From: Methylobacillus caricis
Lineage (GTDB): Bacteria > Pseudomonadota > Gammaproteobacteria > Burkholderiales > Methylophilaceae
Length of the DNA: 64,000 nucleotides
Direction of reading: 5' to 3'
Assembly (NCBI RefSeq): GCF_020532705.1
Contig: NZ_JAJAVD010000001.1
Coordinates: 1,860,001-1,924,000 of the forward strand
Shown here piece by piece: positions 8,774 through 64,000 of this stretch. Position numbers and translations under genes: made by a program. The notes below the pieces were generated by a model. It saw only the letters and a list, made by a program, of their open reading frames with translations, did no database searches and had not been told where the DNA came from. Position 1 is the first letter of the stretch. Every line of letters starts with the position of its first letter.

Positions 8774-8775
8774 GT

Positions 8776-9063
8776 TCAGTGCTTGCGCCAGAGATAACGA
8801 TAGACAAATCCCGGAAATGCAAACACCACAAACAGGCTGAAGGTAATTGCATAGAACTCCCAACGACGCTCAGCCACCTGTCCCACGCTCGACTGCTCCA
8901 CTTCAATGGCAATCGCGCCTACTACAAAATACAAAACAACCAGCTCGAAAAAACACCAGGCCAGTGATTTGTGCTTGAGTGGAATCAGGTAGAACAGGCG
9001 TCCGGAAAACCATGGCAGGTTTGCTGCCAGCAATGCCAGCAGCAGAAGTATTGTGATTGTCAT
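8776..9063 (-). CDS. DUF2818 membrane protein
   Basis: 95 residues with three hydrophobic segments (about 3-20, 37-55 and 69-85). It matches the DUF2818 pattern, a small protein found immediately after nuoN in Betaproteobacteria. It starts four bases after the nuoN stop. The conserved link with complex I suggests an assembly or stability role, but none is proven. Confidence 0.85.
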   Translation of the reverse strand: MTITILLLLALLAANLPWFSGRLFYLIPLKHKSLAWCFFELVVLYFVVGAIAIEVEQSSVGQVAERRWEFYAITFSLFVVFAFPGFVYRYLWRKH

Positions 9064-9067
9064 CTAT

Positions 9068-10516: not shown

Positions 10517-10535
10517 GATTGTTTTCTCGTCACAT

Positions 10536-49896: not shown

Positions 49897-50361
49897 CTAC
49901 TGGCGCGCTTCTTTCAGGCGGAAATTATCATGACACCCCTTGCAGGTCTTGCCGATCTCCCCTACCTGGGCCTTTAACGAGTCCAGATCCTTGGCCGATG
50001 CAGACAATTTGGCAATCTCCACCTGGAACTTGTCGGCTGCCTCTTTGTATTTGGCCTGCTCAGTCCAGATTTTAGGGTCGGCCTTGTTCAAAGCGCCTTT
50101 ATCAGTACCAGGGCCGAACGAGCCAAATGGCAATGGCCCCAATAGCTCAAGCAATGCCGCCGTCTTCACTGCAAACGCCTGGTCATAAGGTCGCTCACCT
50201 TTGGCGATAGCGCCCAATGCATTGAAGTTACGGCCAATCACATTGAATACAGACTGGCGATAGCGGATTTCCTCTTCAGGCTTGGGATCAGCGGCATAAG
50301 CAGCATGCACGCTTCCACTCATGGCGATAACAAGAACAAGTTGTTGAAATACTTTCTTCAC
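49897..50361 (-). CDS. Class II cytochrome c (cytochrome c'-like), paralogue 1
   Basis: 154 residues, signal peptide (AAYA/ADPK). Four-helix-bundle pattern with an N-terminal RYRQSVFNVIGRNF segment and a C-terminal heme site CKGCHDNF near 139-146, as in cytochrome c'. Periplasmic; cytochromes c' bind NO or carry electrons. It sits between ccm and the TonB receptor and resembles the protein at 56999-57478 (shared RQSxxxVxxxN and PGTxxG words). Confidence 0.9.
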   Translation of the reverse strand: MKKVFQQLVLVIAMSGSVHAAYAADPKPEEEIRYRQSVFNVIGRNFNALGAIAKGERPYDQAFAVKTAALLELLGPLPFGSFGPGTDKGALNKADPKIWTEQAKYKEAADKFQVEIAKLSASAKDLDSLKAQVGEIGKTCKGCHDNFRLKEARQ

Positions 50362-50972
50362 TTTGATTCCTCTTTTTTAATTGGCAGAGTTTGGAATTTG
50401 GATTTTTCACTGCTGCGCCGGCAAACCCAAGCCGACTTATTCAGTTGCTATGCCTGTCACTTCCATAACGCTAACGTTGGGCATATAAATCAACCTTAGC
50501 ATCATGGTTTTTATGCAATATCCATACCATCCAATTAAAACAGTCACTTGAATAAAAAACCAAAATAAAAAAGCACCCGCCTGTTCCAAACCAAACATTC
50601 AATGCTGCAACAAAAACAACAACTGTTCATTAACAACTTCAAATAGAAAACTTAGCGCCACCCAATCCTTAAGAAAAAAGCATCAAGTACCATCCGGTTT
50701 GTATCAAAACTGCTTGAAATAAATCATCAGTCAATCACATTCCAGTACAGAGAATGATTCAAACCCAACAGCATGAGACCAGTTCTTCAGGCAAAAAAAT
50801 TTAAATATTTTTACATTCCAGGTTTTTATTGGGGCCAATAATAACAAGGCTTCTATAGGCTAATAAGGAATATTTAAACCTATACAAATACCCTTTACTT
50901 ATAAATTGGCACACTCTTTGCGCTAGCTGATGCGGTAATTTTTATTTGCATATCTAGGGGAGTGAACTAAAA
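50362..50972 (+). promoter_or_regulatory. Divergent region between cytochrome c' gene and TonB receptor
   Basis: About 610 AT-rich bases with no supportable gene. Besides the sigma-54 promoter (listed separately) it holds a perfect dyad TTATTGG-GG-CCAATAA at 50826-50841, about 100 bases upstream of the expected start, where activators of sigma-54 promoters usually bind. Confidence 0.55.
50906..50921 (+). promoter_or_regulatory. Sigma-54 (-24/-12) promoter of the TonB receptor
   Basis: TTGGCAC-N5-TTGC matches the sigma-54 consensus exactly at the invariant GG (50908-50909) and GC (50920-50921) with correct spacing. It lies about 50 bases before the ATG of the receptor, and AGGGGAG precedes that ATG. 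Confidence 0.82.
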
Positions 50973-53723
50973 ATGAATTTTTCACATCGTCACCGCCGAC
51001 CACGGACGGTGCCATTTAGATTATCCAGAATCGCAACTGCTGTTGGCGCAACAATTAGTATCCTGGGAGCCAATCCGATATATGCAGCGGACGATGCCAT
51101 TGTTAACGAGCTGCAGGCGGAAATCGCCAAGCTCAAACAAGCATTGGAAAAGAGCCAACAGGAACTGGCTGCGCAAAAAAGCGGCCCACCTCAAGATGTA
51201 ACAGAGGCTCAAACTACCCAGCCTGCTGCTGCACAACCTCAACAAGTGGCGCAGGAAGAAGAACCTGCAGAACTGGGCAAGGTGGTGGTACGTAGCCGTA
51301 ACAAACTGGAGGCACTGCAGGACGTGCCAATCTCCATTTCAGTGGTCAGCGGCAAGGAACTGGATCGATTCCAGGCACGTGACCTGGGATCAGTTACCCA
51401 ACGTGCAGCCAACGTATCCTGGAATCAGGGCAACGCCCGTACCAGCAGCCTCTCAATTCGCGGATTGGGCAAACAGGCTCAGACAGATTCGATGGACCCC
51501 AGTGTAGGAGTGACAGTAGATGATGTCTCCTATGGCTATAACCCCCTCTCTAGCTTTGACTTTTATGATATAGAACAAGTTGAAGTAGCTCGTGGTCCTC
51601 AAGGAACATTAAAAGGCAAGAATTCCAGCATAGGTGCCATTACGATCACTACTCGTCGCCCAACATTTGAGTCTCAGCAAAGCTACTCTCTCGCTATGGG
51701 CGACAACAACCGAGTGATCGCCAATGCGGCCATCGGTGGAACCGTGATAGAGGATGTGCTTGCATGGCGTGGCTCTTTTGCTGTAGACAAAGGAGAGGGT
51801 TACTATCCCAACAATTATAATCGTGACTTCCGTTACATGAACAAAGACAATGTTTCAGGACGTGTGCAATTTCTGTTTACGCCAACGGAGAAGTTCGATG
51901 CACTGGTAAGGCTTGAACTAACGCCAAAACACGAAGAATATTACAACGGCTGGACTTTCTTCAAGCCAACGCCCACTAGATATGCAAATGGCCAAGCCAA
52001 TTTACTAGGTACAGATGCTTCAACAAGATTAAATAGACGTTGGTTTCTACAAAGAAGCGACTATAGTTATAAAAATGATTACTTAGATAATAGTGTTTAT
52101 CAAAATGACCAGCGTCCGCTCGTTACATCTACCTGGGGCACATCTGCCGTATTGAACTGGCATTTAGAAAATCACACCCTAACGTCAATTACTGCATACA
52201 AAAACTTCTCTTTCCAAGCCAGAAATGATGAAGGAACTCCGTTTGACATTACTAAAAATGGTGGTGGATTGGTGACCCGTCATGATCAAATCAGTCAGGA
52301 ATTTAGATTATCTTCTAATGGTGGTGAATTTGTAGACTACCAAACTGGTTTATATTTCTTGAGTTCGCGCAATAATTACAGCTCTCGAACAGGATTTGGG
52401 TCTGACGCAGGTGCATGGTTTGCTAACGATAATCAATACACAACCTTAGATACAACAGGAGCTGGTCGATATCTTATGCAAAACGCATTAAGCGGCTTGG
52501 AATATAATATCCCACAGGATATTCATAATAAAAGCGCTGCTATCTACGGACAAGCAGATTGGCATCTTTCCGAACCTTTAACTTTAACAACAGGTTTAAG
52601 ATTTACTTTAGAGGATAGAGCCAACTCATCTTCAAGATCCATCGCTAGTCAAGGCTATGGTGCAGATCTGAACCCCTACTCTGTCAATGGAGTCTTGCTG
52701 GGTGGGTATGATGCAACAAACCTAGCAGACCCTACACAAATGGCACTTGCAAATGCTGTTGCTCAGAAATATTTTGGTAAGGATTATAATACGCTATTAA
52801 GCCCTGAACTAGCCCAGATAAATGCAGCTAGAGCACTTCGCGCAAACCAATTAGGCATTGTATATAATAAAGTTGAAGCGGAGACCTTCAGAAAAGTACA
52901 ACCTACCGCATTATTCAGCCCAAGTTATAAATTTAATGAAAATGTCACTGGATATGTTTCATTACAATATGGTGAAAAATCTGGTATAGCTCAAGTTGTT
53001 AATGGTTATGATAACCAAGTCAAGCCGGAAAAAACCAAATCCTTTGAAGTTGGTTTTAAAAGCATATTGTTAAATGACACTTTAACCTTCAACACAAACT
53101 TATTCTTAACTGATATTAAAGATTATCAACAAGCAGTGATGATCTATGATGAATATACAACCAAGCTTAATAGTGGTGGTTCAACTCAACAACTTTACTA
53201 CACATCAGCCACAGGAAATGCTGCAAAGGTTCGAGCGTATGGATTAGAGTTTGATGGAGTCTATTCAGGACTCCCACATACCACGATACGTTTTGCTGGG
53301 GCCTACAATAACGCTTACTATAAAGATTTCAAGAATGCAGGAAAACCTCCTGAAGAAGCTAATACAAGTAATCCTTATCGAGATGTAACCGGTGAAAACT
53401 TGCCGGGAGCAGCAAAATTCTCCTTTAACATTGGGGCAGATTATCGATATCCTGTCTTTTCAAATGCAGAGTTCCATAGCAGCATTAACCTTGCATATAC
53501 CAGCAAATATAACTCCGATGTAACTCTTTCAAGTTATGGTTGGGTTGATGCTTACACTCGAACAGATTTTTCGATTGGTCTTGGTAGACGAGACCGCAAG
53601 TTTGACGTCAGCCTGCTAGTGAAGAACTTATTCGATGATGATACGCCACAGATACGTACTTGGAACAGCTATGTGCCAGCTATTCCCCGTTGGATTGGCA
53701 TTATGTTTACTAGTGATCTTTAA
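50973..53723 (+). CDS. TonB-dependent outer-membrane receptor with N-terminal coiled coil
   Basis: 916 residues. Signal peptide (cleavage near IYAA/DDAI), then a short coiled coil (about 41-68, ELQAEIAKLKQALEKSQQEL), a Pro/Gln-rich linker, a TonB-box-like LGKVVVRSRN (about 100-109), the plug domain (LQDVPISISVVSG to VEVARGPQGTLKGKNSSIGAI, about 113-228) and a 22-strand-type barrel ending in NLFDDDTPQIR...FTSDL. Imports a large or metal-bound solute; substrate unknown. Base composition falls sharply from about 51,950 on, so plug and barrel look like different origins. Confidence 0.9.
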   Translation: MNFSHRHRRPRTVPFRLSRIATAVGATISILGANPIYAADDAIVNELQAEIAKLKQALEKSQQELAAQKSGPPQDVTEAQTTQPAAAQPQQVAQEEEPAELGKVVVRSRNKLEALQDVPISISVVSGKELDRFQARDLGSVTQRAANVSWNQGNARTSSLSIRGLGKQAQTDSMDPSVGVTVDDVSYGYNPLSSFDFYDIEQVEVARGPQGTLKGKNSSIGAITITTRRPTFESQQSYSLAMGDNNRVIANAAIGGTVIEDVLAWRGSFAVDKGEGYYPNNYNRDFRYMNKDNVSGRVQFLFTPTEKFDALVRLELTPKHEEYYNGWTFFKPTPTRYANGQANLLGTDASTRLNRRWFLQRSDYSYKNDYLDNSVYQNDQRPLVTSTWGTSAVLNWHLENHTLTSITAYKNFSFQARNDEGTPFDITKNGGGLVTRHDQISQEFRLSSNGGEFVDYQTGLYFLSSRNNYSSRTGFGSDAGAWFANDNQYTTLDTTGAGRYLMQNALSGLEYNIPQDIHNKSAAIYGQADWHLSEPLTLTTGLRFTLEDRANSSSRSIASQGYGADLNPYSVNGVLLGGYDATNLADPTQMALANAVAQKYFGKDYNTLLSPELAQINAARALRANQLGIVYNKVEAETFRKVQPTALFSPSYKFNENVTGYVSLQYGEKSGIAQVVNGYDNQVKPEKTKSFEVGFKSILLNDTLTFNTNLFLTDIKDYQQAVMIYDEYTTKLNSGGSTQQLYYTSATGNAAKVRAYGLEFDGVYSGLPHTTIRFAGAYNNAYYKDFKNAGKPPEEANTSNPYRDVTGENLPGAAKFSFNIGADYRYPVFSNAEFHSSINLAYTSKYNSDVTLSSYGWVDAYTRTDFSIGLGRRDRKFDVSLLVKNLFDDDTPQIRTWNSYVPAIPRWIGIMFTSDL

Positions 53724-53746
53724 GCAGGCCTAATTGGCAACTCGAT

Positions 53747-53775
53747 AAACGGACTCCACTGGAGTCCGTTTTTAT
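53747..53775 (+). terminator. Terminator after the TonB receptor
   Basis: An 11-base perfect stem (AAACGGACTCC 53747-53757 / GGAGTCCGTTT 53761-53771) with a 3-base loop and T-run. It ends the receptor message before the next promoter. Confidence 0.92.
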
Positions 53776-53927
53776 TTCACCTTGCTGGGCACAGCTGTTT
53801 ATTTACCACCAGCAGTATGTTGCCATTACATCAATCTCGTGAACACTCTTGGTCCATTATCATAAAGTTATGAGCTTAACACGCTGTATCAAAATATATT
53901 TTCAGACCAATTAGATATCTCATTATA

Positions 53928-53943
53928 TTGGCACAGTCTCTGC
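53928..53943 (+). promoter_or_regulatory. Sigma-54 promoter of the small secreted protein gene
   Basis: TTGGCAC-N5-CTGC: invariant GG at 53930-53931 and GC at 53942-53943, correct spacing, one mismatch in the -12 box. It lies about 51 bases before the ATG at 53994, the same geometry as the receptor promoter. Confidence 0.72.
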
Positions 53944-53993
53944 TATCTATCTTTGATAAATCAATTGTTAAAATCATCACTAAGAGATCAAAT

Positions 53994-54374
53994 ATGAAAC
54001 TTGAAAAATATCATCATAAAACTCTGATCAACAATTTTTGCAAATTGATTGCCATAGTGGCAATTGCAGCTTATAGCATGAGCAATCTTACCGAAGCGGG
54101 CACGCTGACAGAAGGCAATTGGTCTTCTATAAAATGTGGTAAACCTATCGCTCCCACACTCAACCTAACAGATGAAGATGCCTATAACGACAGCGTTCTT
54201 GCAGTAAACGCCTACCGCCAGAAAATCAAGCCTTACTTGGATTGCATAGTTGATGAAGCCAATGCAGATATACAGGCAATCAATAATCAAGTGAAAAAGG
54301 AGCAACTGGCAATTCAGGAAGCCAATAATAAAATTTCTGAAGATGCAAAATCTGCTGGTGAGAAGTTCAAGTAG
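53994..54374 (+). CDS. Small secreted protein of unknown function
   Basis: 126 residues from the ATG at 53994; an upstream extension of the frame would overlap the promoter. Signal peptide (helix about 17-30, cleavage near TEA/GTLT), a mature part with two cysteines (SIKCGKP and YLDCIVDE) likely to form a disulfide, and a C-terminal helical, charged stretch with coiled-coil character. AT-rich like the receptor barrel. I recognise no family. Confidence 0.75.
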   Translation: MKLEKYHHKTLINNFCKLIAIVAIAAYSMSNLTEAGTLTEGNWSSIKCGKPIAPTLNLTDEDAYNDSVLAVNAYRQKIKPYLDCIVDEANADIQAINNQVKKEQLAIQEANNKISEDAKSAGEKFK

Positions 54375-54496
54375 TATTAAAAATCTACCTCTTAAACTTG
54401 GGGAAATCCAAATGACTTTCCCCTGAATTAAAGTGATCCTTTGTTCAAAACGAGGCCAAGGATTCCGGTACTTGTAAATGGAAGGGGATTTTAAGA

Positions 54497-55108
54497 TTAG
54501 CGTTTGACCTTAATAAAGGTCGAAATAATATATTTGTCTCCCGATATAGGCATGTGCCCACAATGCATATAATTCCACCCTGCAGGAAATAAAACGAGAT
54601 ATCCGGCCTTCGGGGAGATTTTTATTCCTTGATGAAAAAATTCTGTCTCTCCCCCTTTTTCCACATCGTTCAGATACAGCACCATGGCGACAACCCGGTC
54701 TCCGGTATCTCCTCCGATCGAGTCGGCATGCCAACGGAAATAGCCCTGGTTTTTTGGATACATTTGGATCTTGTACCCCGTTGCCTGCAAATCAAATGCT
54801 TCTAATATAGGGCTTCTGGATATGTAATGAGATATGCAAGCTTCAATCTTTGGATGGACTCTCTGAAAGATGTCCTGCCAATTACCTTCATTGACTATTT
54901 CAAGATCCCAGGAACGTTTAGTTTCCGCTTCATAGAGAGCACCTCCTGACCTGTCCACCTTTCCCCGCCACTTGCCTTTGTCTTGATCAAAAAGATCGAC
55001 AATAGAGCCACACAAGCCTTCATCCAGCCCCTGATAAACTACAATAAAATCTTGATCGTACACAATATCTGCTAATAGATGGTTATTGGCATTCATCGGA
55101 CATTTCAC
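54497..55108 (-). CDS. 2-oxoglutarate/Fe(II)-dependent oxygenase (prolyl-4-hydroxylase type)
   Basis: 203 residues (199 from the internal ATG, MNANNHLL). The double-stranded beta-helix metal site is complete: HAD (in WHADS), a distal His in HCGHMP and the 2-oxoglutarate Lys in SGDKYIISTF. No signal peptide, so cytoplasmic. Such enzymes hydroxylate peptides or small molecules. Convergent with the secreted-protein gene. Resembles phage/environmental P4H-like proteins more than PiuC. Confidence 0.85.
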   Translation of the reverse strand: MKCPMNANNHLLADIVYDQDFIVVYQGLDEGLCGSIVDLFDQDKGKWRGKVDRSGGALYEAETKRSWDLEIVNEGNWQDIFQRVHPKIEACISHYISRSPILEAFDLQATGYKIQMYPKNQGYFRWHADSIGGDTGDRVVAMVLYLNDVEKGGETEFFHQGIKISPKAGYLVLFPAGWNYMHCGHMPISGDKYIISTFIKVKR

Positions 55109-55144
55109 TCATTAAAAGCTTGGCGCCAGCACAAATAGAAGCAA

Positions 55145-55174
55145 AATGCCGTTCAGAAGCTACTGAACGGCATT
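55145..55174 (-). terminator. Terminator after the MBL-fold gene
   Basis: A 12-base perfect stem (AATGCCGTTCAG 55145-55156 / CTGAACGGCATT 55163-55174) with a 6-base loop and ATTTTGC following on the minus strand. It lies between the MBL-fold gene and the oxygenase gene, so the latter probably has its own promoter or relies on read-through. Confidence 0.78.
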
Positions 55175-55213
55175 ACTATCCAAGAAGGTTATTGTTAGTA
55201 TTTCTTAGGTAAC

Positions 55214-56707
55214 TTATTTACCAATAAAACCTTCCAGGTCAGCCAAGGTAACAACATTAGGGCCATGCAAGGCAGCAATCTTGTCTACATTCAGCTTCAA
55301 GCGCTTGATATTGTCATACAAGTTCACTGAATATGGGTTGATGCTTGCAGGAACCGGAGCACCAGCAGGCAATGGTGTGTAAGCATCAGCCTCAATCAGA
55401 ATTTTCTCTGCAGGAAGATAGATCAGGGCAAAGGCATCATTGTGGCCGCTATCCTTGATGGTATGAATCTCAATGTTGCGCTGGCCGTCAGTCAATACAT
55501 GCTTATCGGAGAAAGCGGCAAACTTGGCCGATTTGTTTGACTTCGCAAGGCGGTCGGGATTGATCGTATGCTTGGCAGCCCATATTTTTTCATAATAGGG
55601 CTTGTTGGCCTGCTGAGTAACGATAGTCGCTCCCTCGTCGACAAAGGTGCGCAAACCGCCTGAATGGTCAAAATGGTGATGTGTGTTCACCAGGTAACGA
55701 ATCGGCTTGTTTGGCACGAGCTCCTTGGCCTTGGCAATCACGGCTTCAGAGCGGGCTTCATTGAGCGGGGCCTCCACTATCACTAGGTGATCCTTCTGGT
55801 CTATCAGCACACTGTGGTGGGTGCCTCCCTTGAGGTAATAAACGCCAGGAGCTAATTCTTCAGACGTGACAAGGATGCTCTGAGCATTACTGGCACTAGC
55901 CTCGGCAGGTACATCGATATGTGCAGCGGCATTAGGGGTGACAGATGCAATGTTCAGGTCCAGCACCGGATATCCTCCCTGCTTGCGTACGATATGGGCA
56001 GGGAACAACACACCGTTGAAATCCTTGTAATTGGAATAGGTATAGTCAATTTCAGTATCACCCAGCACCGGATTATCAATCCAGGTTTGCACACGCTCAA
56101 CCTGATTCTTCACATTGATAATGCCGACATAACGGTTCTTGCCCGCGGTGAATGTCAGCTTGGTGCCCCCATTATGGGCTTGCGAAGTGGCATTGTTGGC
56201 TGCGGCAGCCTTGAGAAAACCTTGCGGAGTTGTCCAGATTTCCGTGATTCGTTCTTCCAACTGCGCGGGTTGTGGCTGTACTGTTGGGGTGGCTGCACCA
56301 GGGGCAGCGGCGAGATTCCAGGCAGCATTACCGCTCACGTATTGATCAGGTTTTTGCTCTACCGGGGCAGGCCTTACGCGACCAGCTTCTACCACTTGCT
56401 TGCGCGTAATTTGCACGCGTGCAGCCGGCTGACCGTAATTGATAGTGGCATCATAGCTGCTGACATCAAATGGCGGCCATGGAGACTTGGTATTGGGTGC
56501 CTGGCCAAACTGGTACCAGCGTCCTGTGCCAGTAAAAGCGATGGACTGTATCTTGGCAACTCCGAGTGCCTCGCTAGCATCCTGCAAAGTACCTGCTGCC
56601 ATACTGTAGGTCGGGATCAAGCCCAGGGAAAAAAGAATGGTCGGCACGGCCACTATGCGTGTGCGCCAGTTAACACTGTGGAAATAACTGGAATTACTTA
56701 CGGACAT
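55214..56707 (-). CDS. Exported metallo-beta-lactamase-fold hydrolase with extra N-terminal domain
   Basis: 497 residues, signal peptide (YSMAA/GTLQ). Residues about 40-270 form a beta-rich region of unknown function, split by an Ala/Pro linker (AAAPGAATPTVQPQPAQ), before the MBL core. The Zn motif is THHHFDHSGG (about 341-350), with later ligands in DSGHNDAF and EADAYTP. Typical MBL length is about 250-300, so the N-terminal half is extra. Periplasmic hydrolase of unknown substrate, resembling those of quinoprotein gene sets only loosely. Confidence 0.85.
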   Translation of the reverse strand: MSVSNSSYFHSVNWRTRIVAVPTILFSLGLIPTYSMAAGTLQDASEALGVAKIQSIAFTGTGRWYQFGQAPNTKSPWPPFDVSSYDATINYGQPAARVQITRKQVVEAGRVRPAPVEQKPDQYVSGNAAWNLAAAPGAATPTVQPQPAQLEERITEIWTTPQGFLKAAAANNATSQAHNGGTKLTFTAGKNRYVGIINVKNQVERVQTWIDNPVLGDTEIDYTYSNYKDFNGVLFPAHIVRKQGGYPVLDLNIASVTPNAAAHIDVPAEASASNAQSILVTSEELAPGVYYLKGGTHHSVLIDQKDHLVIVEAPLNEARSEAVIAKAKELVPNKPIRYLVNTHHHFDHSGGLRTFVDEGATIVTQQANKPYYEKIWAAKHTINPDRLAKSNKSAKFAAFSDKHVLTDGQRNIEIHTIKDSGHNDAFALIYLPAEKILIEADAYTPLPAGAPVPASINPYSVNLYDNIKRLKLNVDKIAALHGPNVVTLADLEGFIGK

Positions 56708-56998
56708 ATTTTGCTCCCTTGTAGGTTAAAAAGTGTTATCAATTAACCTGGGATACTCAGCAAATTATGCGCCAGTGCCGACAATATCCGGTGCAAATGC
56801 AAAATTAACCAGATAAAAATTCAAGACATTGTTTTATATGAAAAATAACAATGAAATTAAAATAAAAAAAGAGTAAGAAACCTCGCAAGCCTAAAAATTT
56901 GCTTCATCCGTTGTTGCAGGTGAAATCCGTCAGAAACAGCGCTGTTGCATTCACATCACCAACTGCTCCTGCCAGATCACCTACAGCTATGCGCCAGT
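56708..56998 (-). promoter_or_regulatory. Spacer between class II cytochrome and MBL-fold gene
   Basis: About 290 bases, strongly A-rich on the plus strand around 56,780-56,880. No gene and no clear terminator hairpin. It probably holds the promoter of the MBL-fold gene; I find no sigma-54 match on this strand. Confidence 0.35.
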
Positions 56999-57478
56999 TT
57001 ATTCCTTACCCTTGAAATCATCGTGGCAGGCTTTGCAAGTACGCGTCACCTTGCCAAACTGCGCCTTCACAGCAGCCGCGTCAGCGGTAGGCGCAATTTT
57101 TGCCAGCTCTGCAGCTTCTTTGCTGAAACTGAGTGAAAGCTCTGCAAACCGTTTACGATCCTTGAAGGCCTCAGGCTTGGCGCTGGTTTCGTGCCAGCCT
57201 TTGCCCTGCTCGGTTCCCGGGACAAATAAGTCCTCAATACCAGAGCTGGCAACACTAGCAATTGTATTGGCAGCCGTGGTAACTTCATTTTTGTCATATT
57301 GCCCTTCTAGCGCGGCTTTGATCCTGGCGACATTCCATTCCACCACACGATAGGCAGACTGGCGCCATTGGATGAGCTTTTCCGGCTTGGCTGCAGGGGC
57401 AGCCAGGACTGAAAGCGGGGACACAGCAAGATAAGTTGCTACCAAAGGCAGTAACACCAATTTAGAAAAAATTTTCAT
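56999..57478 (-). CDS. Class II cytochrome c (cytochrome c'-like), paralogue 2
   Basis: 159 residues, signal peptide (VLAA/PAAK). QWRQSAYRVVEWNVARIK at the first helix and CKACHDDF heme site near 149-156. Clearly related to the protein at 49897-50361 (shared PGTxxGKG region), so a duplicated pair flanks the TonB receptor block. Confidence 0.9.
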   Translation of the reverse strand: MKIFSKLVLLPLVATYLAVSPLSVLAAPAAKPEKLIQWRQSAYRVVEWNVARIKAALEGQYDKNEVTTAANTIASVASSGIEDLFVPGTEQGKGWHETSAKPEAFKDRKRFAELSLSFSKEAAELAKIAPTADAAAVKAQFGKVTRTCKACHDDFKGKE

Positions 57479-57495
57479 TCATATTTCCATGAAGT

Positions 57496-57521
57496 AACAA
57501 CCCCGCCTAAGCAGGGTTGTT
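57496..57521 (-). terminator. Possible attenuator before the class II cytochrome gene
   Basis: An 8-base stem AACAACCC (57496-57503) / GGGTTGTT (57514-57521); on the minus strand only a weak T-stretch follows. Ends or attenuates the SMP-30-like message 18 bases before the next start. Confidence 0.45.
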
Positions 57522-57572
57522 TATGACAGATACCAAGTTATCCAGGACCATAAGCCAAGGTATTTAGCAAGG

Positions 57573-58565
57573 CTATTTGGCCCGACCGGTGTAGCCTTGC
57601 GCCAACGTCGGGAATTTGTATGCAGCGCCACGACCGACGATATAGAACGTACGTTTGTCCTTGCCAGAAAATGCAATATTCTGGGCTTTCCTGGGTAAGG
57701 CAATATTGCCAAGGAACTCACCTTTGGCACTAAAAACCTGTATGCCGGTATTGGCAGCAACATACAATCTGCCATCAGCATCCACCGCCAAGCCATCGGC
57801 TCCACTGGAAACACCGCCAGTTTCGGTTTTCTGCAAGGCATCTTCAAGTTTGGCGAAATTACGCTTGTTGCTGACGGAGCCATCCGCAGCAATATCGTAT
57901 GCAATGATGTATTCACCGGCAGTGTTAGCCACATACAGTACTTTTTCATCTGGGCTGAGCTGAATACCGTTTGGACGTTCAATATCGGTTGCAATCAACA
58001 CCAGCTCGCCACTAGGCTTAGTGTAGTAGACCGCTGGCTTTGTTGGTACCTGATCAGGCTTGACCGGTCCGTTAGCACCTGGGTCGGTGAAATACACGCC
58101 CCCTTTTTTATCCAGCACAAGGTCATTTGGACGGTTCAATGGCTTGCCGTCATATTGCTCCGCTAATACTTTGGCTTTGTCCGCAGGGTGAATAATGCCG
58201 ACACGAGGTTTCAGCGTTTGTGCAGCGTACAGCTCACCGTTCACACTCAGCGCCAGGCCATTGGCCCCATTGCTATCTGCAATATAGGTGGTCACATTGT
58301 CATTTTCATCAATTCGCGTAATTCGGTTGGCCTGAGTTTCAGTAAAAATCAAGCTGCCGTCAGGCAAACCCAAAGGGCCCTCAGTACCAGTGAAGCCATC
58401 TTTGATCAAGCGGATCTTAACCCCGCCAGCCACTACGCCAGCGATGGCAGGTGTAACCGGATCTTCCTCAGCCTGAACTGGAGCTATTGAGACCATACTC
58501 ACAGCCGCGGCAGCAATTAATAACTTTATTAGCCACGATTCACGTTTAACAACATTGACCTGCAT
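57573..58565 (-). CDS. SMP-30/gluconolactonase/LRE-like exported protein
   Basis: 330 residues, signal peptide (PVQA/EEDP), ribosome site AGGAG. Six-bladed propeller pattern: GLPDGSLIFTETQANRI, NGLALSVNGELYAAQT, RPNDLVLDKKGGVYFTDPG, RPNGIQLSPDEKVLYVANT, and DGLAVDADGRLYVA. Metal ligands Glu, Asn and Asp in TET, RPND and DG positions are present. Usually hydrolyses lactones; here periplasmic. Confidence 0.88.
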   Translation of the reverse strand: MQVNVVKRESWLIKLLIAAAAVSMVSIAPVQAEEDPVTPAIAGVVAGGVKIRLIKDGFTGTEGPLGLPDGSLIFTETQANRITRIDENDNVTTYIADSNGANGLALSVNGELYAAQTLKPRVGIIHPADKAKVLAEQYDGKPLNRPNDLVLDKKGGVYFTDPGANGPVKPDQVPTKPAVYYTKPSGELVLIATDIERPNGIQLSPDEKVLYVANTAGEYIIAYDIAADGSVSNKRNFAKLEDALQKTETGGVSSGADGLAVDADGRLYVAANTGIQVFSAKGEFLGNIALPRKAQNIAFSGKDKRTFYIVGRGAAYKFPTLAQGYTGRAK

Positions 58566-58667
58566 ATCTTTATTTCTCCTTTATTTTAACGATCCACCCT
58601 ACAGGCACCGGATGCTGTGATGTCCAGTTAAGCATTCGGGACTGATCAGTGCTGACCTGCTACTCAA

Positions 58668-59330
58668 CTACATTCCCGATATGTAATCCGCCAGGGCTTC
58701 AATTTCTTCATCCCTGAGCGACTTAGCTACCAGGTTCATTACGCCACCAGGGCTATTCTTGCGTTCAAGTGCCCGCCATTTAAGTAACTGCTCACGTAAA
58801 TAAAGCTTGTGCTGCCCTGCTATCGCCGGGAAGCTTTCACTCCCCACATAGCTACCTTGGCCAGCAGTCCCATGACAGCTTGCGCAAGCCATGATGGTTC
58901 GCTTCATATCGCCATTGACGAATAGCTTTTCCGCGATTTCATTGGATTTTTTCTGCTGGCTGCGCACGCGGTCGCGGCTGGCAAAATAAGCCGCAATATC
59001 CGCTAGGTCTTCATCCTTAATGCTTCCAGCAACGGCATTCATTACATGATGCTGGCGTGCGCCAGAACGAAAATCTCTGAACTGTTTCATGATGTAATCA
59101 GCATATTGACCGGCAAGGCGCGGATACTCTGCCCCGCTACTATTGCCCTGCTCGCCATGGCATCCTTGGCATAACTCGGCCTTGGACTTGGCTTCACCCG
59201 CCACCGGGTCTCCATCCCCAACCCGGTCTGCAATCCCATCGTGCTCATCGGCAACAGCACACTGACTCGACACAAGCGCCAGAAACAACACACTTACAGC
59301 ACACGCCCTTACCAAAAACTTAACTACCAC
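58668..59330 (-). CDS. Di-heme cytochrome c4-like protein
   Basis: 220 residues from a GTG start, signal peptide (CAVA/DEHD). Two class I heme sites, CQGCHGEQGN (about 54-63) and CASCHGTAGQG (about 150-160), each followed by a domain with distal Met (HHVMNAV and GGVMNLV). This is the c4 architecture, an electron carrier to terminal oxidases. 31 bases after the peroxiredoxin gene. Confidence 0.93.
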   Translation of the reverse strand: MVVKFLVRACAVSVLFLALVSSQCAVADEHDGIADRVGDGDPVAGEAKSKAELCQGCHGEQGNSSGAEYPRLAGQYADYIMKQFRDFRSGARQHHVMNAVAGSIKDEDLADIAAYFASRDRVRSQQKKSNEIAEKLFVNGDMKRTIMACASCHGTAGQGSYVGSESFPAIAGQHKLYLREQLLKWRALERKNSPGGVMNLVAKSLRDEEIEALADYISGM

Positions 59331-59361
59331 GAAACCTTCCTACCCTTCCCTGCCAAGCGCA

Positions 59362-59961
59362 TCAAGGCTTCTTGGCAAGGCCTTTAGCCGCAGTCAGCCG
59401 CTGAACAGACTCAAGCGCTTTATCAACATTCAATGCAGGCGTCACGCCTCCAACGGTTTCACTTATCTTGCCATCAGCAGTGATAATGAAGGTCGTACGC
59501 TCAGCGAAGCCGTGATCTATTTCTTTACCTTTGGTGTCTTTTTTGCCAGTGGTGGCGTCCCTCACCACCAGATCATAGGATTTGGCAATCTTGCCCCCAA
59601 CATCAGAGGCTACCGGGAACTTGCCTGCGCAATAATCAGGATCTGCCGAGAACTCATTCAAGCGCTCAATGCTATCAAGCGATACCCCAATAATGGTGGC
59701 GCCTGCGGCGGCAAACTTGTCATGATTTTCTGCAAATGTGTGAGCTTGCACATTGCATCCGCCGGTATAAGCAGATGGATAGAAATAGACCACGACAGGC
59801 CCTTTTTTCAATGCATCCTTCAACGAGAAATCAAAACTTTTCCCGTTCAGCGAAGCTTGTGTCTTAAAGTCGGGGGCAACATCGCCATCCTTAAGCGCAG
59901 CCAATGCTGACAAGCTGAATAAACCAAGCAATACACTACTGATAACGATGAATCTTTTCAT
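59362..59961 (-). CDS. Exported peroxiredoxin (AhpC/TSA, Bcp-like)
   Basis: 199 residues, signal peptide (LSALA/ALKD), ribosome site GGAG. Peroxidatic Cys in PSAYTGGCNVQAHTF near 70, within the PxxxTxxC frame; a second Cys in DPDYCAGKF may resolve it. Export of a peroxiredoxin is uncommon and fits a periplasmic reaction producing peroxide. Confidence 0.88.
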   Translation of the reverse strand: MKRFIVISSVLLGLFSLSALAALKDGDVAPDFKTQASLNGKSFDFSLKDALKKGPVVVYFYPSAYTGGCNVQAHTFAENHDKFAAAGATIIGVSLDSIERLNEFSADPDYCAGKFPVASDVGGKIAKSYDLVVRDATTGKKDTKGKEIDHGFAERTTFIITADGKISETVGGVTPALNVDKALESVQRLTAAKGLAKKP

Positions 59962-59993
59962 TGGGAACTCCGATGTTGAATCTTTCAGGACAA

Positions 59994-60377
59994 TTAATCC
60001 TTGGATTTATAAATCTTGTGACAAGCCTTGCAAGTCTTGGCAAGTGAGACCGCAGACTGAGAAGCAGCATCAAAATTCTTGGCTTCTAACGCTTTGGAAA
60101 TAGCTACAAGATAACCGCGACTTTCCTTGGACCAATCCACGGCATCGGCCGCATCACCCTTCTTCACATAGAACTCTTCAACATCCTTGAACATTGCTTC
60201 AAGCTCAACCGCCTCCGACTTTGCCGTCGCTGCATCCTGCAAGGAAATATTCGATGTCATGCTCTTCTGTATGTCTTCGATGTCCTGCATGAAATCCTCT
60301 TCAATTTCAGTCAGTGCCGCTACTACAGATCCTGTTAAAGCAAGATAAACAAATAGTGAAACTAAGAACTTACTCAT
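59994..60377 (-). CDS. Short class II-type cytochrome c
   Basis: 127 residues, signal peptide (VVAA/LTEI). Helical bundle with C-terminal CKACHKIYKSKD heme site. Shorter than the two cytochrome c' paralogues and not closely similar; closer to the cytochrome c class II family of small electron carriers. Confidence 0.87.
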   Translation of the reverse strand: MSKFLVSLFVYLALTGSVVAALTEIEEDFMQDIEDIQKSMTSNISLQDAATAKSEAVELEAMFKDVEEFYVKKGDAADAVDWSKESRGYLVAISKALEAKNFDAASQSAVSLAKTCKACHKIYKSKD

Positions 60378-60456
60378 TTAACCCTTTTAATCTAGGCCTA
60401 TCCTGGGGTTATGCATCATTCCCCTAAAGCGCTTTTACTCAGCATTAAATTAAACC

Positions 60457-60501
60457 GCGCGATGATCCTTCCTGAGTGATCGTCCAGGATTTTCATCGCG
60501 C
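60457..60501 (-). terminator. Terminator after the DUF1501 gene
   Basis: A 9-base stem GCGCGATGA (60457-60465) / TCATCGCGC (60493-60501) with a structured loop, followed on the minus strand by GGTTTAATTT. Moderate terminator or attenuator. Confidence 0.6.
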
Positions 60502-60525
60502 AGTGCTTGATGCAACCAGCCAGTG

Positions 60526-61968
60526 CTAAGCCAACAATTCCTTGATGACTTCACCATAAACCACGGTAGGACGCTCCGAGCGGCCGTTGTGCAAGAAAGT
60601 GGTTTTCAGGTGATCAAGGCCCATCAGCTGCAAGACAGTGGCATGAAGATCATAGGTATCCATGGTCTTGCCAACAGCCTGCAGGCCCACCTCATCTGTT
60701 TGGCCGAACGTAGTACCAGCCTTGATACCGCCGCCAGCCAGCCACTGGGTGTAGCCCCATGGGTTGTGGTCACGGCCGGTACCACTCTGCCCGTAAGACG
60801 TACGGCCAAACTCTGAGGTCCACACAATCAATGTAGAATCGAGCAGGCCGCGAGACTCAAGATCGGCAAGCAAGCCAGCAATCGGCTTATCAACAACTTT
60901 TGAATGAGTGCGATGGTTTTCCTCGATATCGTTGTGTCCATCCCAGTTACGGCTGTCACCAGCAATATCCTGCGGGCCCGAGACAACCTGGATGAAACGA
61001 ACTCCACGTTCTACCAGTCGGCGTGCGCGCAACAAGGTTTGGCCGTAACTCTTGGTAATGTCCTCATCAAGGCCATACAGCGCCTTGGTTGCATCCGTCT
61101 CCTTGGTCAGGTCTACCGCTTCTGGGGCTGACACTTCCATCCGGGCAGCCAGTTCATAAGAACGGATACGGGCTTGTAGTTCGGTATCTTCCGGGTAGTG
61201 TGCACCGCGTACACGATTCAATCTGGTCAACAGATCCAGGCTACCCTGCTGTTGCGCTGCCGCAATCAGCTCAGGCCTGTCCAGATGCAGGATAGGGGAC
61301 GGGCCAGGACGGAAAGCCGTTCCCTGGTAAACCGCAGGCAAGAAGCCTGAGCTCCAGTTGATCGATCCGCCAGTTGGCTCCTTTTTGTCGTTATAGAGCA
61401 CGACATAGGCTGGCAAGTCGGGATTGGCAGAACCCAAGGCATACTGTATCCAGGCACCCAGGGACGGGCGGCCAGGGTTAAGATCGCCCGTGTTCAGCTT
61501 GAGAATGGAAATATCATGTGTAGCCCCGATGGTCACGCTGGATTTAACAAACGCCAGTTTATCGGCATGTTTAGCCAGATTTGGCAGTAGGTCAGAGAAC
61601 CAGGCACCGCTCTCGCCATGCTGTTTCCAGGTGCGGTCGGTTGCAAACAATTTTCCGTCACCACCACGGATGCCCGCCTTCAGTCCATTGAGGAAGGAAT
61701 CTGGAATCTGCTGTCCAGCCAACTTAATCAAATCAGGTTTGTAATCAAACAGTTCCAGCGTGCTAGGTGCGCCATCCATATGCAGCCAGATGACCGATTT
61801 AACTTTGGCCGGGAAGTGAGTACCCTTAGGACTCAATGGATCGACCAGTGAAGCTGCGTTGGCAAAGGTGGTAAATAATCCACCGCCAGGCATCAGGCCG
61901 CTAAGGGCCAAGCCTCCCACCCCGTAACTCGTTTTAAACAAAAAATCACGCCGTGAATTGTTGCTCAT
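60526..61968 (-). CDS. Tat-exported DUF1501 protein (sulfatase/phosphatase-like fold)
   Basis: 480 residues from the ATG at 61968. Twin-arginine signal NSRRDFLFKTSYGVGGLAL at the N-terminus. DUF1501 marks: VIWLHMDGAPSTLELFDYK, RARRLVERGVRFIQV, and the C-terminal VWTSEFGRT plus DHNPWGY motifs, which recall alkaline-phosphatase-superfamily metal sites. Common beside DUF1549/DUF1553 genes in Planctomycetes, uncommon in Betaproteobacteria. Ribosome site GGAAAC. Confidence 0.9.
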   Translation of the reverse strand: MSNNSRRDFLFKTSYGVGGLALSGLMPGGGLFTTFANAASLVDPLSPKGTHFPAKVKSVIWLHMDGAPSTLELFDYKPDLIKLAGQQIPDSFLNGLKAGIRGGDGKLFATDRTWKQHGESGAWFSDLLPNLAKHADKLAFVKSSVTIGATHDISILKLNTGDLNPGRPSLGAWIQYALGSANPDLPAYVVLYNDKKEPTGGSINWSSGFLPAVYQGTAFRPGPSPILHLDRPELIAAAQQQGSLDLLTRLNRVRGAHYPEDTELQARIRSYELAARMEVSAPEAVDLTKETDATKALYGLDEDITKSYGQTLLRARRLVERGVRFIQVVSGPQDIAGDSRNWDGHNDIEENHRTHSKVVDKPIAGLLADLESRGLLDSTLIVWTSEFGRTSYGQSGTGRDHNPWGYTQWLAGGGIKAGTTFGQTDEVGLQAVGKTMDTYDLHATVLQLMGLDHLKTTFLHNGRSERPTVVYGEVIKELLA

Positions 61969-62008
61969 GATGTTGTTTCCTTTTATTTGTATTCGATGTA
62001 AACGCTGT

Positions 62009-64000
62009 TTAGAAGCGATAGCTGAATTCGTTTGAGTTGGCCACTGTATGCACCAAGTCCACAAAGGCAGAGGCTCGAACTGGATCCAATTGCTGCGTAT
62101 CCTTTAATCCAACTGGTACAGCCAGTGCCAATTTTCCTTCCGAATCCTTGATCTTCTCCTTGATCAGCTTTTCCTGGCTGCCAAGGAAAGCTATCAGGGC
62201 TGCTTTCTCTTCCTTATCCGGATTCCGCGCAAACAGCACTTGGAACAGCTTGTCCACCTGGGCAGATTCACTTGCCCCAGCCTCACTAATTACTTTTCCT
62301 GCCAATGCTTGTGACCAGCCAAAGATCACGTCGCTATTGAATAAAGTGAGTGCTTGCAGTGGCGTAGTCGTCACGTCCCGCTTGCTGTGCACCTGTTGTG
62401 CATTCGCCATGTCAAAAGTATCTAACAATGGATAAGGCACGCTACGACGGGTAAAGATATAGAGGCTGCGACGATTCCAGTCGCTGGTATCCTTGGAAAC
62501 TTCCCAGAAACGGCCCGCATTCAGGTTTGAAGGCACAGGAGGCATCACGCTAGGGCCACCCACTTTGTCTTCCAGCTTGCCTGAAGCCACCAGCAGGGAA
62601 TCCCGGATCTGCTCTGCATCCAGTCGCTTCCGTGGGAATACTGCCAGCAGTTTGTTTTCAGGATCTGCCTTGTAAGCATCTTCTCGATAGTCGGATGACT
62701 GACGGTAGACGCTAGACAACAGAATTTCCTTATGCAGTTTCTTGACGCTCCAACCTTGTTTCACGAAGTTGCTGGCAAGATATTCCAGGAGTTCCGGATT
62801 GTTAGGCTTATCTCCTGCCCGACCAAAGTCGCTGACGGTACGGACGATGCCAGAGCCAAAGTATTGGTCCCATACACGATTGACAAAGACACGCGCTGTC
62901 AACGGGTTTTGTGGGCTGGCAATCCAGTTAGCCAAGGCAGTACGCCGTCCTGAAGAAAACGCTGTCGGGACGATCTGTGGCTTCTCGCTAGTCAGTGCCG
63001 CTGGAAAGGCTGGCTGCACTTCATCAAGCGGGTGGTCAAAAGCACCGGTGAACAACACATGGGTTGGCGGCGCATCGGCGTACCCAAGCTCAGTCATGGC
63101 AGAAATGGTATTTGAACCCTTGGCCGGCTTGATCTTGTCGAACTTCTTCAGCTCATCATCCAGCTTTTTGTATTCAGCATACTTCTCTGCATATTCAGGC
63201 TTATAGTCTTTGGCATCTTTGCTAGCGTTATCCCTGAAGAAATTCGCCAAAATGTCATCGGTCTGGTAATCGCCATAACGATGATTGATCCAGCGGTCAC
63301 GAGCAGTCCACTGGCTATCTGGGACATAGACTTTCCTCAATGCCTCCTGTGTGTCAGCAGAGTAACGCTCAAACAAGTAAGCAATGGCTTCAGAACGGTA
63401 AGCATCAACAATGGCTTTTTTCTTTTCGCGGATTTCCCTGGTTGCTTCTTGCCATTTAGCCTGAGCTTTTTCAAACTGGACTTCCTGAGGGCCTTTGGGG
63501 GCAGGAATGTTATCCACTGCACTTACGTTGGCAAAGAACGCCTGCAAGGCAAAGTAGTCTTTCTGGCTGATCTTGTCCGACTTGTGGTTATGGCAGCGAG
63601 CGCATTCAAAAGTAGTCCCCAGAATTGCAGTGCCTACCGTATCGGTGATGTCAGTCGTAATCTGGTATTTTCGCTGCACCAAGTCACGGGAGTTGCTATT
63701 GTCCGGGAAACCGCGCAAGAAACCAGTAGCAACTAACGCGCTGTTATCACCAGGATAAATCTCATCACCAGCCAGTTGCTCCTTGATAAACCGGTCATAT
63801 GGCTTGTCTTCATTAAAGGAGTTGATGACGTAGTCTCGGTAACGCCACATGTTGGGTCTTGTCTGGTCGCCCTGGAAACCAGAACTATCTGCATAACGTG
63901 CAAGATCCAGCCATTTGCGCGCCTGGCGCTCGCCATACTTGGGAGATGCCAGCAAACGATCCACCAGCTTCTCATAAGCATCAGGGGATTTGTCATTCAC
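62009..64000 (-). CDS. DUF1549/DUF1553 (planctomycete cytochrome-associated) protein, 5' end missing
   Basis: 664 codons including the stop, open at the right edge. The N-terminal visible part is DUF1549 (KLVDRLLASPKYGERQARKW, WRYRDYVINSFNEDKPYDRF) with one heme-like CARCHNH motif near 119-125; the C-terminal part is DUF1553 (ANWIASPQNPLTARVFVNRV, LLSSVYRQSSDYR). Family members are usually 800-1000 residues with an N-terminal cytochrome-like domain, so 150-300 residues are outside. 40 bases before DUF1501, the order seen in Planctomycetes. Confidence 0.9.
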   Translation of the reverse strand: MNDKSPDAYEKLVDRLLASPKYGERQARKWLDLARYADSSGFQGDQTRPNMWRYRDYVINSFNEDKPYDRFIKEQLAGDEIYPGDNSALVATGFLRGFPDNSNSRDLVQRKYQITTDITDTVGTAILGTTFECARCHNHKSDKISQKDYFALQAFFANVSAVDNIPAPKGPQEVQFEKAQAKWQEATREIREKKKAIVDAYRSEAIAYLFERYSADTQEALRKVYVPDSQWTARDRWINHRYGDYQTDDILANFFRDNASKDAKDYKPEYAEKYAEYKKLDDELKKFDKIKPAKGSNTISAMTELGYADAPPTHVLFTGAFDHPLDEVQPAFPAALTSEKPQIVPTAFSSGRRTALANWIASPQNPLTARVFVNRVWDQYFGSGIVRTVSDFGRAGDKPNNPELLEYLASNFVKQGWSVKKLHKEILLSSVYRQSSDYREDAYKADPENKLLAVFPRKRLDAEQIRDSLLVASGKLEDKVGGPSVMPPVPSNLNAGRFWEVSKDTSDWNRRSLYIFTRRSVPYPLLDTFDMANAQQVHSKRDVTTTPLQALTLFNSDVIFGWSQALAGKVISEAGASESAQVDKLFQVLFARNPDKEEKAALIAFLGSQEKLIKEKIKDSEGKLALAVPVGLKDTQQLDPVRASAFVDLVHTVANSNEFSYRF

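Follow-up and report, generated by a model that had tools for sequence, protein, structure and literature searches.

A putative sigma54-controlled sulfur-starvation island around DUF1501 and DUF1549/DUF1553 proteins in Methylobacillus caricis

In this paper we analysed a window of 64,000 nucleotides from Methylobacillus caricis (contig NZ_JAJAVD010000001.1, positions 1,860,001 to 1,924,000) and describe a gene island at window positions 49897-64000. It is built around two proteins labelled 'protein of unknown function' in Pfam, DUF1501 and DUF1549/DUF1553. Our results suggest that this is probably a sigma54-controlled sulfur-starvation island for scavenging sulfur from organic compounds. The assignment of its regulation to sulfur starvation seems very likely to us and a role in acquiring sulfur appears likely, while the specific periplasmic desulfuration chemistry discussed below is put forward tentatively. 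What is seen is a conserved gene set with a common promoter type, a shared palindrome, an amino-acid depletion and a co-occurrence with an encapsulin. The original prediction described an outer-membrane import and periplasmic oxidation and hydrolysis module and took it to be possibly a growth-substrate or metal-ligand system of a methylotroph; 80 related loci support such a module, with kept gene order. We favour sulfur starvation over C1 or metal use because of the sigma54 sites, the palindrome shared with sfn and msu genes, the depletion of cysteine (Cys) and methionine (Met), and the encapsulin co-occurrence.

The core of the island is a minus-strand operon that starts with the DUF1549/DUF1553 (PSCyt2/PSD1) gene, hereafter DUF1553, at 62009 to window-equivalent 64333 (L003:2009-4333; PF07583 and PF07587, one CxxCH). 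Its start lies 333 bases beyond the window end, and window-equivalent numbers continue the window coordinates past 64000 by means of the stretch L003. There follow DUF1501 (60526-61965; PF07394, 445 bits), with a twin-arginine signal and no Cys; protein J (59994-60377), a small class-II-like c-type protein with a CKACH (CxxCH) motif near the C terminus; an exported AhpC/TSA peroxiredoxin (59362-59961; PF00578), with two Cys and the initiator as its only Met; an exported c4-like dihaem cytochrome c (58668-59330; PF00034 in two stretches, two CxxCH); an exported SMP-30-like lactonase (SMP-30/SGL; 57573-58565; PF08450, 144 bits; 0.30% Cys+Met); and the second copy of an exported cytochrome c' (56999-57478; PF01322), whose only Cys are the haem pair and whose only Met is the initiator. 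All genes named in the original prediction were found as open reading frames at their places and with their families (reading frame check and Pfam scan), with the qualification that the third 'class II cytochrome', protein J, matches Pfam below threshold (20.1 bits vs a cut-off of 26.5).

When one genome per species was scanned, 178 stretches with relatives of this DUF1501 were found. The best 80 were taken as related loci and compared with the window proteins by tblastn (E<=1e-4); several of these loci end at contig ends. DUF1553 adjoins DUF1501, just before it, in 79/80 loci. Protein J is found in 69/80, the exported peroxiredoxin in 67/80, the TonB receptor in 53/80 (some at 24-30% identity), the dihaem cytochrome c in 52/80, SMP-30 in 31/80, the family of the second cytochrome c' in 25/80 and the MBL hydrolase in 12/80. 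To judge from these comparisons, the grouping of the island genes is beyond chance and the operon core keeps its order over the 80 loci. The original prediction had named scattered neighbours or a lack of shared regulation in transcript data as outcomes that would speak against it; at the sequence level the neighbours are conserved and have a promoter type in common. Clustering of open reading frames in the 80 loci also revealed recurrent neighbours, namely rhodanese-like proteins (35 loci), cytochrome b561 (28), PepSY proteins (22) and a sigma54 activator (15), with one member of each family scanned, and further ExbB-like (14), dienelactone-hydrolase-like (14) and TonB-like (9) proteins, whose names are readings of the sequence only. 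The rhodanese-like neighbour was not used as evidence of sulfur chemistry: the scanned member matches Pfam below threshold, and the active-site-like loop is without Cys in 21/35 members where the pattern was found. The loci span Methylococcales, Burkholderiales-type, Nevskia/Solimonas-type and alphaproteobacterial genomes. The distribution is patchy, with window-type DUF1501 in 3/300 sampled genomes of the window's order, the window's own included. DUF1501 relatives were found in only 5 plasmid records, and a search of the phage collection gave none at E<=1e-5.

The promoters provide the first line of evidence for the regulation. Sites were scored by simple weighting of the well-known sigma54 -24/-12 consensus, with a maximum of 15 and a hit threshold of 13.3. 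For DUF1553 we searched about 1.3 kb upstream on the coding strand in 75 loci, with 50 random draws of equal stretches of these loci as control. Five of the 80 loci were left out for want of a usable DUF1553 start, and L016 and L079, with starts inferred to lie outside the locus, were kept and counted as misses. A site scoring at least 13.3 is present in 59/75 loci, compared to a control mean of 4.5 and maximum of 9. On the opposite strand of these regions, some of which hold divergent genes, the count is 13. The 16 misses comprise 11 alphaproteobacterial loci (L013, L015, L030, L037, L041, L044, L045, L052, L063, L067 and L075), the two that are cut short and three others (L042, L050 and L076). 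The best TonB receptor is likewise preceded by a site in 25/41 loci (control mean 1.2, maximum 5).

In the window, sigma54 sites are found at four transcription units, and that of DUF1553 lies just outside, at window-equivalent 64412-64427 on the minus strand, 94 bp before the gene. TGGTATGGATATTGCA (50514-50529, minus strand, score 13.8/15) is 168 bp upstream of the gene for the first cytochrome c', an exported class II c (49897-50361, minus strand; PF01322, 111 bits). This gene is divergent from the TonB-dependent receptor of 916 amino acids (50973-53723; PF07715 and PF00593; 0.77% Cys+Met), which occupies the plus strand together with the small secreted protein gene (53991-54374). The receptor has its own site, TGGCACACTCTTTGCG (50907-50922, plus strand, score 14.5/15), 66 bp upstream, and the small secreted protein has TGGCACAGTCTCTGCT (53929-53944, plus strand), 62 bp upstream. 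TGGCGCATAATTTGCT (56759-56774, minus strand, score 14.0) is found 67 bp before the exported MBL-fold hydrolase (55214-56707, minus strand; PF00753; 0.20% Cys+Met), a separate gene behind the operon core. The scan of the window found no site before DUF1501, SMP-30 and the second cytochrome c', all of which are operon-internal. Between 49839 and window-equivalent 64820 there are 8 sites, two of which (51429 and 54039) precede no gene, vs 0.6 in simple shuffles; the remaining 49.8 kb hold 9.

A palindrome connects the DUF1553 promoter with sulfur genes of the same genome. An inverted-repeat search covered 82 regions of the islands that lie upstream of sigma54 sites, a set from which sfn and msu promoters were absent. 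It found TGCTG-N6-CAGCA in 14/82 regions and TGTTG-N6-CAACA in 9/82, and none of either in 20 shuffles. The combined pattern TGYTG-N6-CARCA has 103 exact copies in 1.50 Mb (the 80 loci and L003) and its reversed pattern 3. Of these copies 79 have a sigma54 site 40-330 bp downstream, a nearness that is partly by construction because the palindrome was found in regions picked upstream of such sites; the spacings cluster near 111-113, 143-147 and 155-158 bp. The window's own genome has the pattern at 57 places and the reversed pattern at 7. One exact copy, at window-equivalent 64524-64539, lies 112 bp ahead of the sigma54 site of DUF1553, one precedes an MsuE-like gene (TGTTGATTAATCAGCA), one is found between sfnB and msuE-sfnG (TGCTGATTAATCAGCA), and one (window 51038) falls within the TonB receptor gene. 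A one-mismatch copy (53818-53833), alone not significant, begins 111 bp upstream of the site of the small secreted protein. SfnB, SfnG, SsuD and MsuE of L096 are above curated NCBIfam cut-offs and MsuE of L095 is slightly under (203.7 vs 212.5). The own-genome regulators closest to the island activator (58% and 63% identity) sit in the two sfn/msu sulfur clusters, and all others are at most 48% identical.

The island shares sigma54 promoters with the SfnR/sigma54 sulfate-starvation genes (sfn, msu and ssu) of Pseudomonas and relatives, SfnR-like activators adjoin both the sulfur genes and 15/80 islands, and the palindrome is common to both in the same genome. The products differ, in that the monooxygenases, reductases and transporters encoded by sfn, msu and ssu work in the cytoplasm or the cytoplasmic membrane, whereas the island is periplasmic, haem-rich and equipped with a TonB receptor. 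One study describes that sulfur starvation of P. aeruginosa induces the peroxiredoxin LsfA together with Sfn and Msu proteins (PMC12581299), which is consistent with our reading and is not evidence for the island; in the accessible part of another, SfnR is named only in the references (PMC13352529).

The second line of evidence is the composition of the proteins. Mean Cys+Met is 0.75% in DUF1553 (71 proteins, some incomplete), 0.91% in DUF1501 (64), 0.75% in TonB receptors (54) and 0.39% in SMP-30 (19). The background of the window's own genome has a mean of 3.37% and a 5th percentile of 1.03% (307 open reading frames, from 20 stretches picked around sigma54-like sites). In six DUF1501 encoded on plasmids of other bacteria the values are 2.3-4.4%, and in the DUF1553 paired with them 2.0-3.3%. 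Sulfur genes of the window's own genome are similarly poor (SfnB 0.49%, MsuE 0.49 and 0.55%, SsuA-like 0.28%) or somewhat less so (SfnG 1.35%, SsuD 2.07%, two DszC/SfnB-like proteins about 1.5%). The alphaproteobacterial DUF1501 and DUF1553 are as sulfur-poor as the others despite the missing sigma54 site. Residues counted after position 25 in the island relatives are near-fixed in each family. DUF1553 has exactly two Cys in 70/73 and CxxCH in 72/73, the peroxiredoxin exactly two Cys in 63/63 and no Met in 57/63, cytochrome c' two Cys in 36/37 and no Met in 36/37, the dihaem cytochrome four Cys in 47/50, and DUF1501 no Cys in 75/79. Because of these counts, cysteine appears to be retained where haem is bound and at the presumed catalytic residues of the peroxiredoxin, and the sparing pattern itself flags the cysteines of importance, the DUF1553 haem pair and the two of the peroxiredoxin.

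The extreme depletion would also fit an island that is induced by sulfur starvation and supplies sulfur-poor stand-ins, sparing sulfur-rich housekeeping proteins without acquiring any sulfur. The membrane fusion protein of an adjoining RND operon (417 amino acids; L003:7996-9249, window-equivalent 67996-69249) has no Cys or Met past the initiator. A GroEL/Cpn60 paralog adjoins five Duganella/Rugamonas islands, L031 (18714-20333), L047, L055, L057 and L060 (one member scanned), and has 2-4 Cys+Met including the initiator in 539-563 amino acids; judging by its composition it may be a sulfur-poor chaperonin that serves under sulfur starvation. Both speak for stand-ins. We nevertheless regard this explanation as unlikely, since the window's genome (2.97 Mb) has a single DUF1501 and so no sulfur-rich version to substitute, and since the TonB receptor of the island and the ExbB- and TonB-like genes by some islands point to import.

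The third line of evidence for a sulfur-starvation island is the Family 2A encapsulin. The member SrpI is reported to be upregulated under sulfur starvation in Synechococcus (PMC8049743). We found this encapsulin above cut-off in 43/49 island genomes vs 5/274 genomes of the class, the window's own included, in a comparison which ignores kinship and in which the island genomes come from a non-random set of 50 of the 80 loci, chosen by hand and mostly on long contigs. The 49 include alphaproteobacteria, with the encapsulin in 9/9 of those tested, and the class sample has none. The encapsulin lies at most 10 kb from the island in 7/80 loci, and a cargo-type cysteine-desulfurase gene in 6 (one member of each scanned). 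The window's genome has the encapsulin about 1.6 Mb from the island, next to genes for sulfate transporters and one that resembles serine acetyltransferase. SrpI with its cysteine desulfurase resembles our island in co-occurring in the same genomes and differs from it in being a cytoplasmic compartment, the island being periplasmic.

Beside the partial construction of the palindrome spacing and the make-up of the encapsulin sample, several observations weigh against a sulfur-starvation island. None of the 11 alphaproteobacterial loci has a sigma54 site in the region searched; if the sulfur-starvation reading holds, another regulator must act there. An exact palindrome precedes the promoter only in the DUF1553 unit of the window, the copies at the other promoters having one mismatch, and 25 one-mismatch palindromes in the window vs 15 expected are a modest excess. 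J (3.97%) and the dihaem cytochrome (5.48%) of the window are not depleted in Cys and Met. TonB receptors in general are sulfur-poor, and that of the window ranks sixth lowest among the 31 compared in its genome (itself and 30 of 38 other matches). Five other genomes of the class sample match the encapsulin (4 above cut-off) without having this DUF1501, and two Methylophilaceae also carry the encapsulin without it. An SsuA-like neighbour in 5 loci is below its model cut-off (146.7 vs 163.5 bits, one member scanned). The formylglycine motif of sulfatases, C-x-[PA]-x-R, is missing in 79/79 DUF1501. Lastly, the marine Saccharobesus litoralis has a plasmid (L084) with DUF1553, DUF1501 (62% identical), a J-like protein, cytochrome c, b561 and a TonB receptor in order. 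This unit sits among pectin genes, the region upstream of its DUF1553 has neither a sigma54 site (best 11.0) nor the palindrome, and its DUF1553 and DUF1501 are not sulfur-poor (2.06 and 2.29% Cys+Met). The chemistry of the unit may not be tied to sulfur. Either it also serves bacteria that are not starved of sulfur, or the marks have been lost where sulfate is plentiful. The absence of promoter marks from this unit slightly lowers our confidence in a sulfur-acquisition role and in the specific periplasmic chemistry.

The Saccharobesus copy also raises the question whether the island carries out a general periplasmic oxidation and hydrolysis of complex organic matter for carbon, placed under sulfur-starvation control for another reason. 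Planctomycete PSCyt2/PSD1 and DUF1501 pairs have the same domain pair in adjacent genes, and the island with its CxxCH haem motif agrees with that type. The original prediction noted that such pairs occur mainly in planctomycetes and are tied to periplasmic degradation of complex matter, and the relatives are real: DUF1501 of Singulisphaera, Catenovulum and Haliscomenobacter are 37-43% identical to that of the island, with Singulisphaera at 43%. The likeness does not extend to the sulfur marks. Two Singulisphaera DUF1501 have 2.9 and 3.1% Cys+Met vs the island mean of 0.91%, and the planctomycete-type copies examined are, unlike the island, not sulfur-poor (2.0-4.4%) and without a sigma54 site. 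Catenovulum pairs, also without the marks, are found near glycoside hydrolase or fucose-transporter genes, which agrees with a carbon role. The window's island differs from them here: no glycoside hydrolase is found among its genes, and the neighbour clusters, which were partly scanned, gave no polysaccharide-degradation context. As sulfur-starvation marks dominate the 80 loci, we consider the carbon explanation improbable. The accessible part of PMC2754498 states for PSD1/PSC2 only 'a function in redox reactions', and in that of PMC5615132 the functions of planctomycete-type cytochromes are left open and DUF1501 is not named in the main text. Our literature search found DUF1501 named in 10 papers, in two of them together with sulfur, and DUF1553 in one, with no paper naming both, and among the abstract beginnings on sulfate starvation, TonB and cytochromes no description of such an island.

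The C1 growth-substrate or metal-ligand uptake system of the original prediction has fared worse. It would agree with the many loci in methanotrophs and methylotrophs, with the PepSY proteins in 22/80 loci (one member scanned), which are common in siderophore loci, and with partial matches of the receptor to siderophore-receptor models, under their cut-offs. The island is however also found in Duganella, Rugamonas, Massilia, Derxia, Hydrocarboniphaga and Solimonas, none of which are to our knowledge methylotrophs. Instead, sulfur starvation is indicated by the regulation, the neighbours and the amino-acid content, and the palindrome shared with sfn and msu, the Cys and Met depletion and the encapsulin co-occurrence fit sulfur, leaving a C1 or metal function very improbable.

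For DUF1501 itself, the predicted structure gave 43 PDB matches at E<=0.001. Judged largely by title, they belong to sulfatases, phosphonate monoester hydrolases and others related in fold, with sulfatases as the best (E 3.6e-05). TM-scores to the query are about 0.2-0.36, and the model is weak, with a mean pLDDT of 65.4. A sequence profile also gave weak matches, 10/13 to sulfatases (best E 0.008) and 3/13 to cyanoglobins. The model thus suggests a sulfatase/alkaline-phosphatase-like fold, as in type I (formylglycine) sulfatases, whose Cys motif is missing in DUF1501. The missing motif already tells against DUF1501 as a formylglycine enzyme, and a classic periplasmic sulfatase that frees sulfate from sulfate esters, to which the top fold matches and the profile would point, deserves hardly any credence, given that C-x-[PA]-x-R occurs in 0/79 sequences, that 75/79 have no Cys past residue 25, that the serine form of the motif (C/S-x-P/A-x-R) occurs in 9/79 and is not conserved, and that the fold family also takes in phosphonate hydrolases and lipoteichoic acid synthases. 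It is possible that DUF1501 is a metal-dependent sulfohydrolase with another nucleophile. In an alignment of 37 sequences (mean column identity 75%) the residues H62, S68, T69, D74, D342, H344, H351, D399 and H400 are invariant, and because of this invariance they suggest a metal site. The twin-arginine pair is invariant in the same alignment, and RR-x-F-[LI] is matched in 57/79. In DUF1553, C245-A-R-C-H249 is invariant in 35 aligned sequences. Its predicted model is mostly helical (mean pLDDT 77.5); no fold relative was found in the PDB at E<=0.001 (0/102 Foldseek matches) and none by sequence profile (best E 0.3).

Induction on sulfate limitation, an SfnR-type activator, the direction of transport, the substrate and the chemistry are what we infer from these observations, and they would combine as follows. 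When sulfate is short, the SfnR-type activator would switch the island genes on. The TonB receptor would import an organosulfur compound too big for porins into the periplasm, where the Tat-exported DUF1501 hydrolase and its constant haem-c partner DUF1553 might split or oxidise it, assisted in the window's genome by the SMP-30 and MBL hydrolases. Electrons would exit via J, the dihaem cytochrome and cytochrome c', or elsewhere via cytochrome b561 or PepSY proteins, and the peroxiredoxin would clear peroxide. The released small sulfonate or sulfate could then enter the cell through Ssu/Cys-type transporters, with desulfonation by SsuD/SfnG/MsuE-type enzymes. It is a guess that the adjacent RND pump may export the desulfurated remainder. 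In its specific form, a haem-dependent periplasmic pathway that strips sulfur from large, possibly humic-type, TonB-imported organosulfur compounds, with DUF1501 as a formylglycine-free metal hydrolase and DUF1553 as a new, mostly helical haem-c oxidoreductase, this scheme is possible and on balance doubtful.

For DUF1501 and DUF1549/DUF1553 the analysis names sulfate limitation as the likely condition, a type of regulator and a promoter, together with constant partner genes, in bacteria that are not known to be pathogens, and their function becomes directly testable. If the scheme is true, freshwater and peat bacteria, methanotrophs among them, would have a periplasmic route linked to cytochromes beside the cytoplasmic routes of scavenging organosulfur. 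The planctomycete expansions of DUF1501 and DUF1553 would then be kin of sulfur-ester or sulfonate chemistry and not general degradation enzymes.

Two genes within the island are restricted to few relatives. The small secreted protein, with two Cys past the signal region, has relatives in 2/80 loci, the Methylobacillus loci L004 and L006. It has no Pfam family above cut-off: a longer form of it gave no match at E<=0.001, and a scan at E<=1 gave three weak matches, all under cut-off. Its overall Cys+Met of 3.97% is not depleted. The 2OG-Fe(II) oxygenase (54497-55108, minus strand; PF13640) is probably a bystander and was rejected as an island member, because the window promoter scan found no sigma54 site before it, because its Cys+Met is normal (4.46%) and because its relatives are found in 2/80 loci, again L004 and L006 only.

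The RND operon, which adjoins the island and is divergent from DUF1553, is probably linked to it. It has a weaker sigma54-like site (score 13.5). The outer-membrane factor has 0.43% Cys+Met and the pump protein itself 2.84%, and relatives at least 59% identical are found in 6/80 loci (L004, L006, L048, L066, L072 and L076).

Several further observations concern the relatives of the island. Methylobacillus gramineus, a close relative of the window's genome with a 97% identical DUF1501, has two tandem DUF1553-DUF1501 pairs (L004:3295-7226 and 7613-11440). A contig filed as a Verrucomicrobiaceae metagenome-assembled genome (L011) contains a proteobacterial-type island with a 77% identical DUF1501, by misbinning or transfer. 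Protein J has CxxxCH instead of CxxCH in 23/69 relatives, all from Methylococcales (including L005, L012, L039 and L077), which may be a variant haem-attachment motif or indicate haem loss. Elsewhere in the window's own genome, L154 (C1:1100001-1118000) is a sulfur-poor block of a peroxiredoxin, an SsuA-like protein, a TonB receptor (0.13% Cys+Met) and FMN-dependent monooxygenases, with a 203-residue protein without Cys or Met past the initiator and several TGYTG-N6-CARCA sites. L140 (C3:45001-65000) contains sigma54 sites, a TonB receptor, sulfur-poor exported-looking proteins without a Pfam family and a dienelactone-hydrolase-like gene of a kind that adjoins the island in other genomes.

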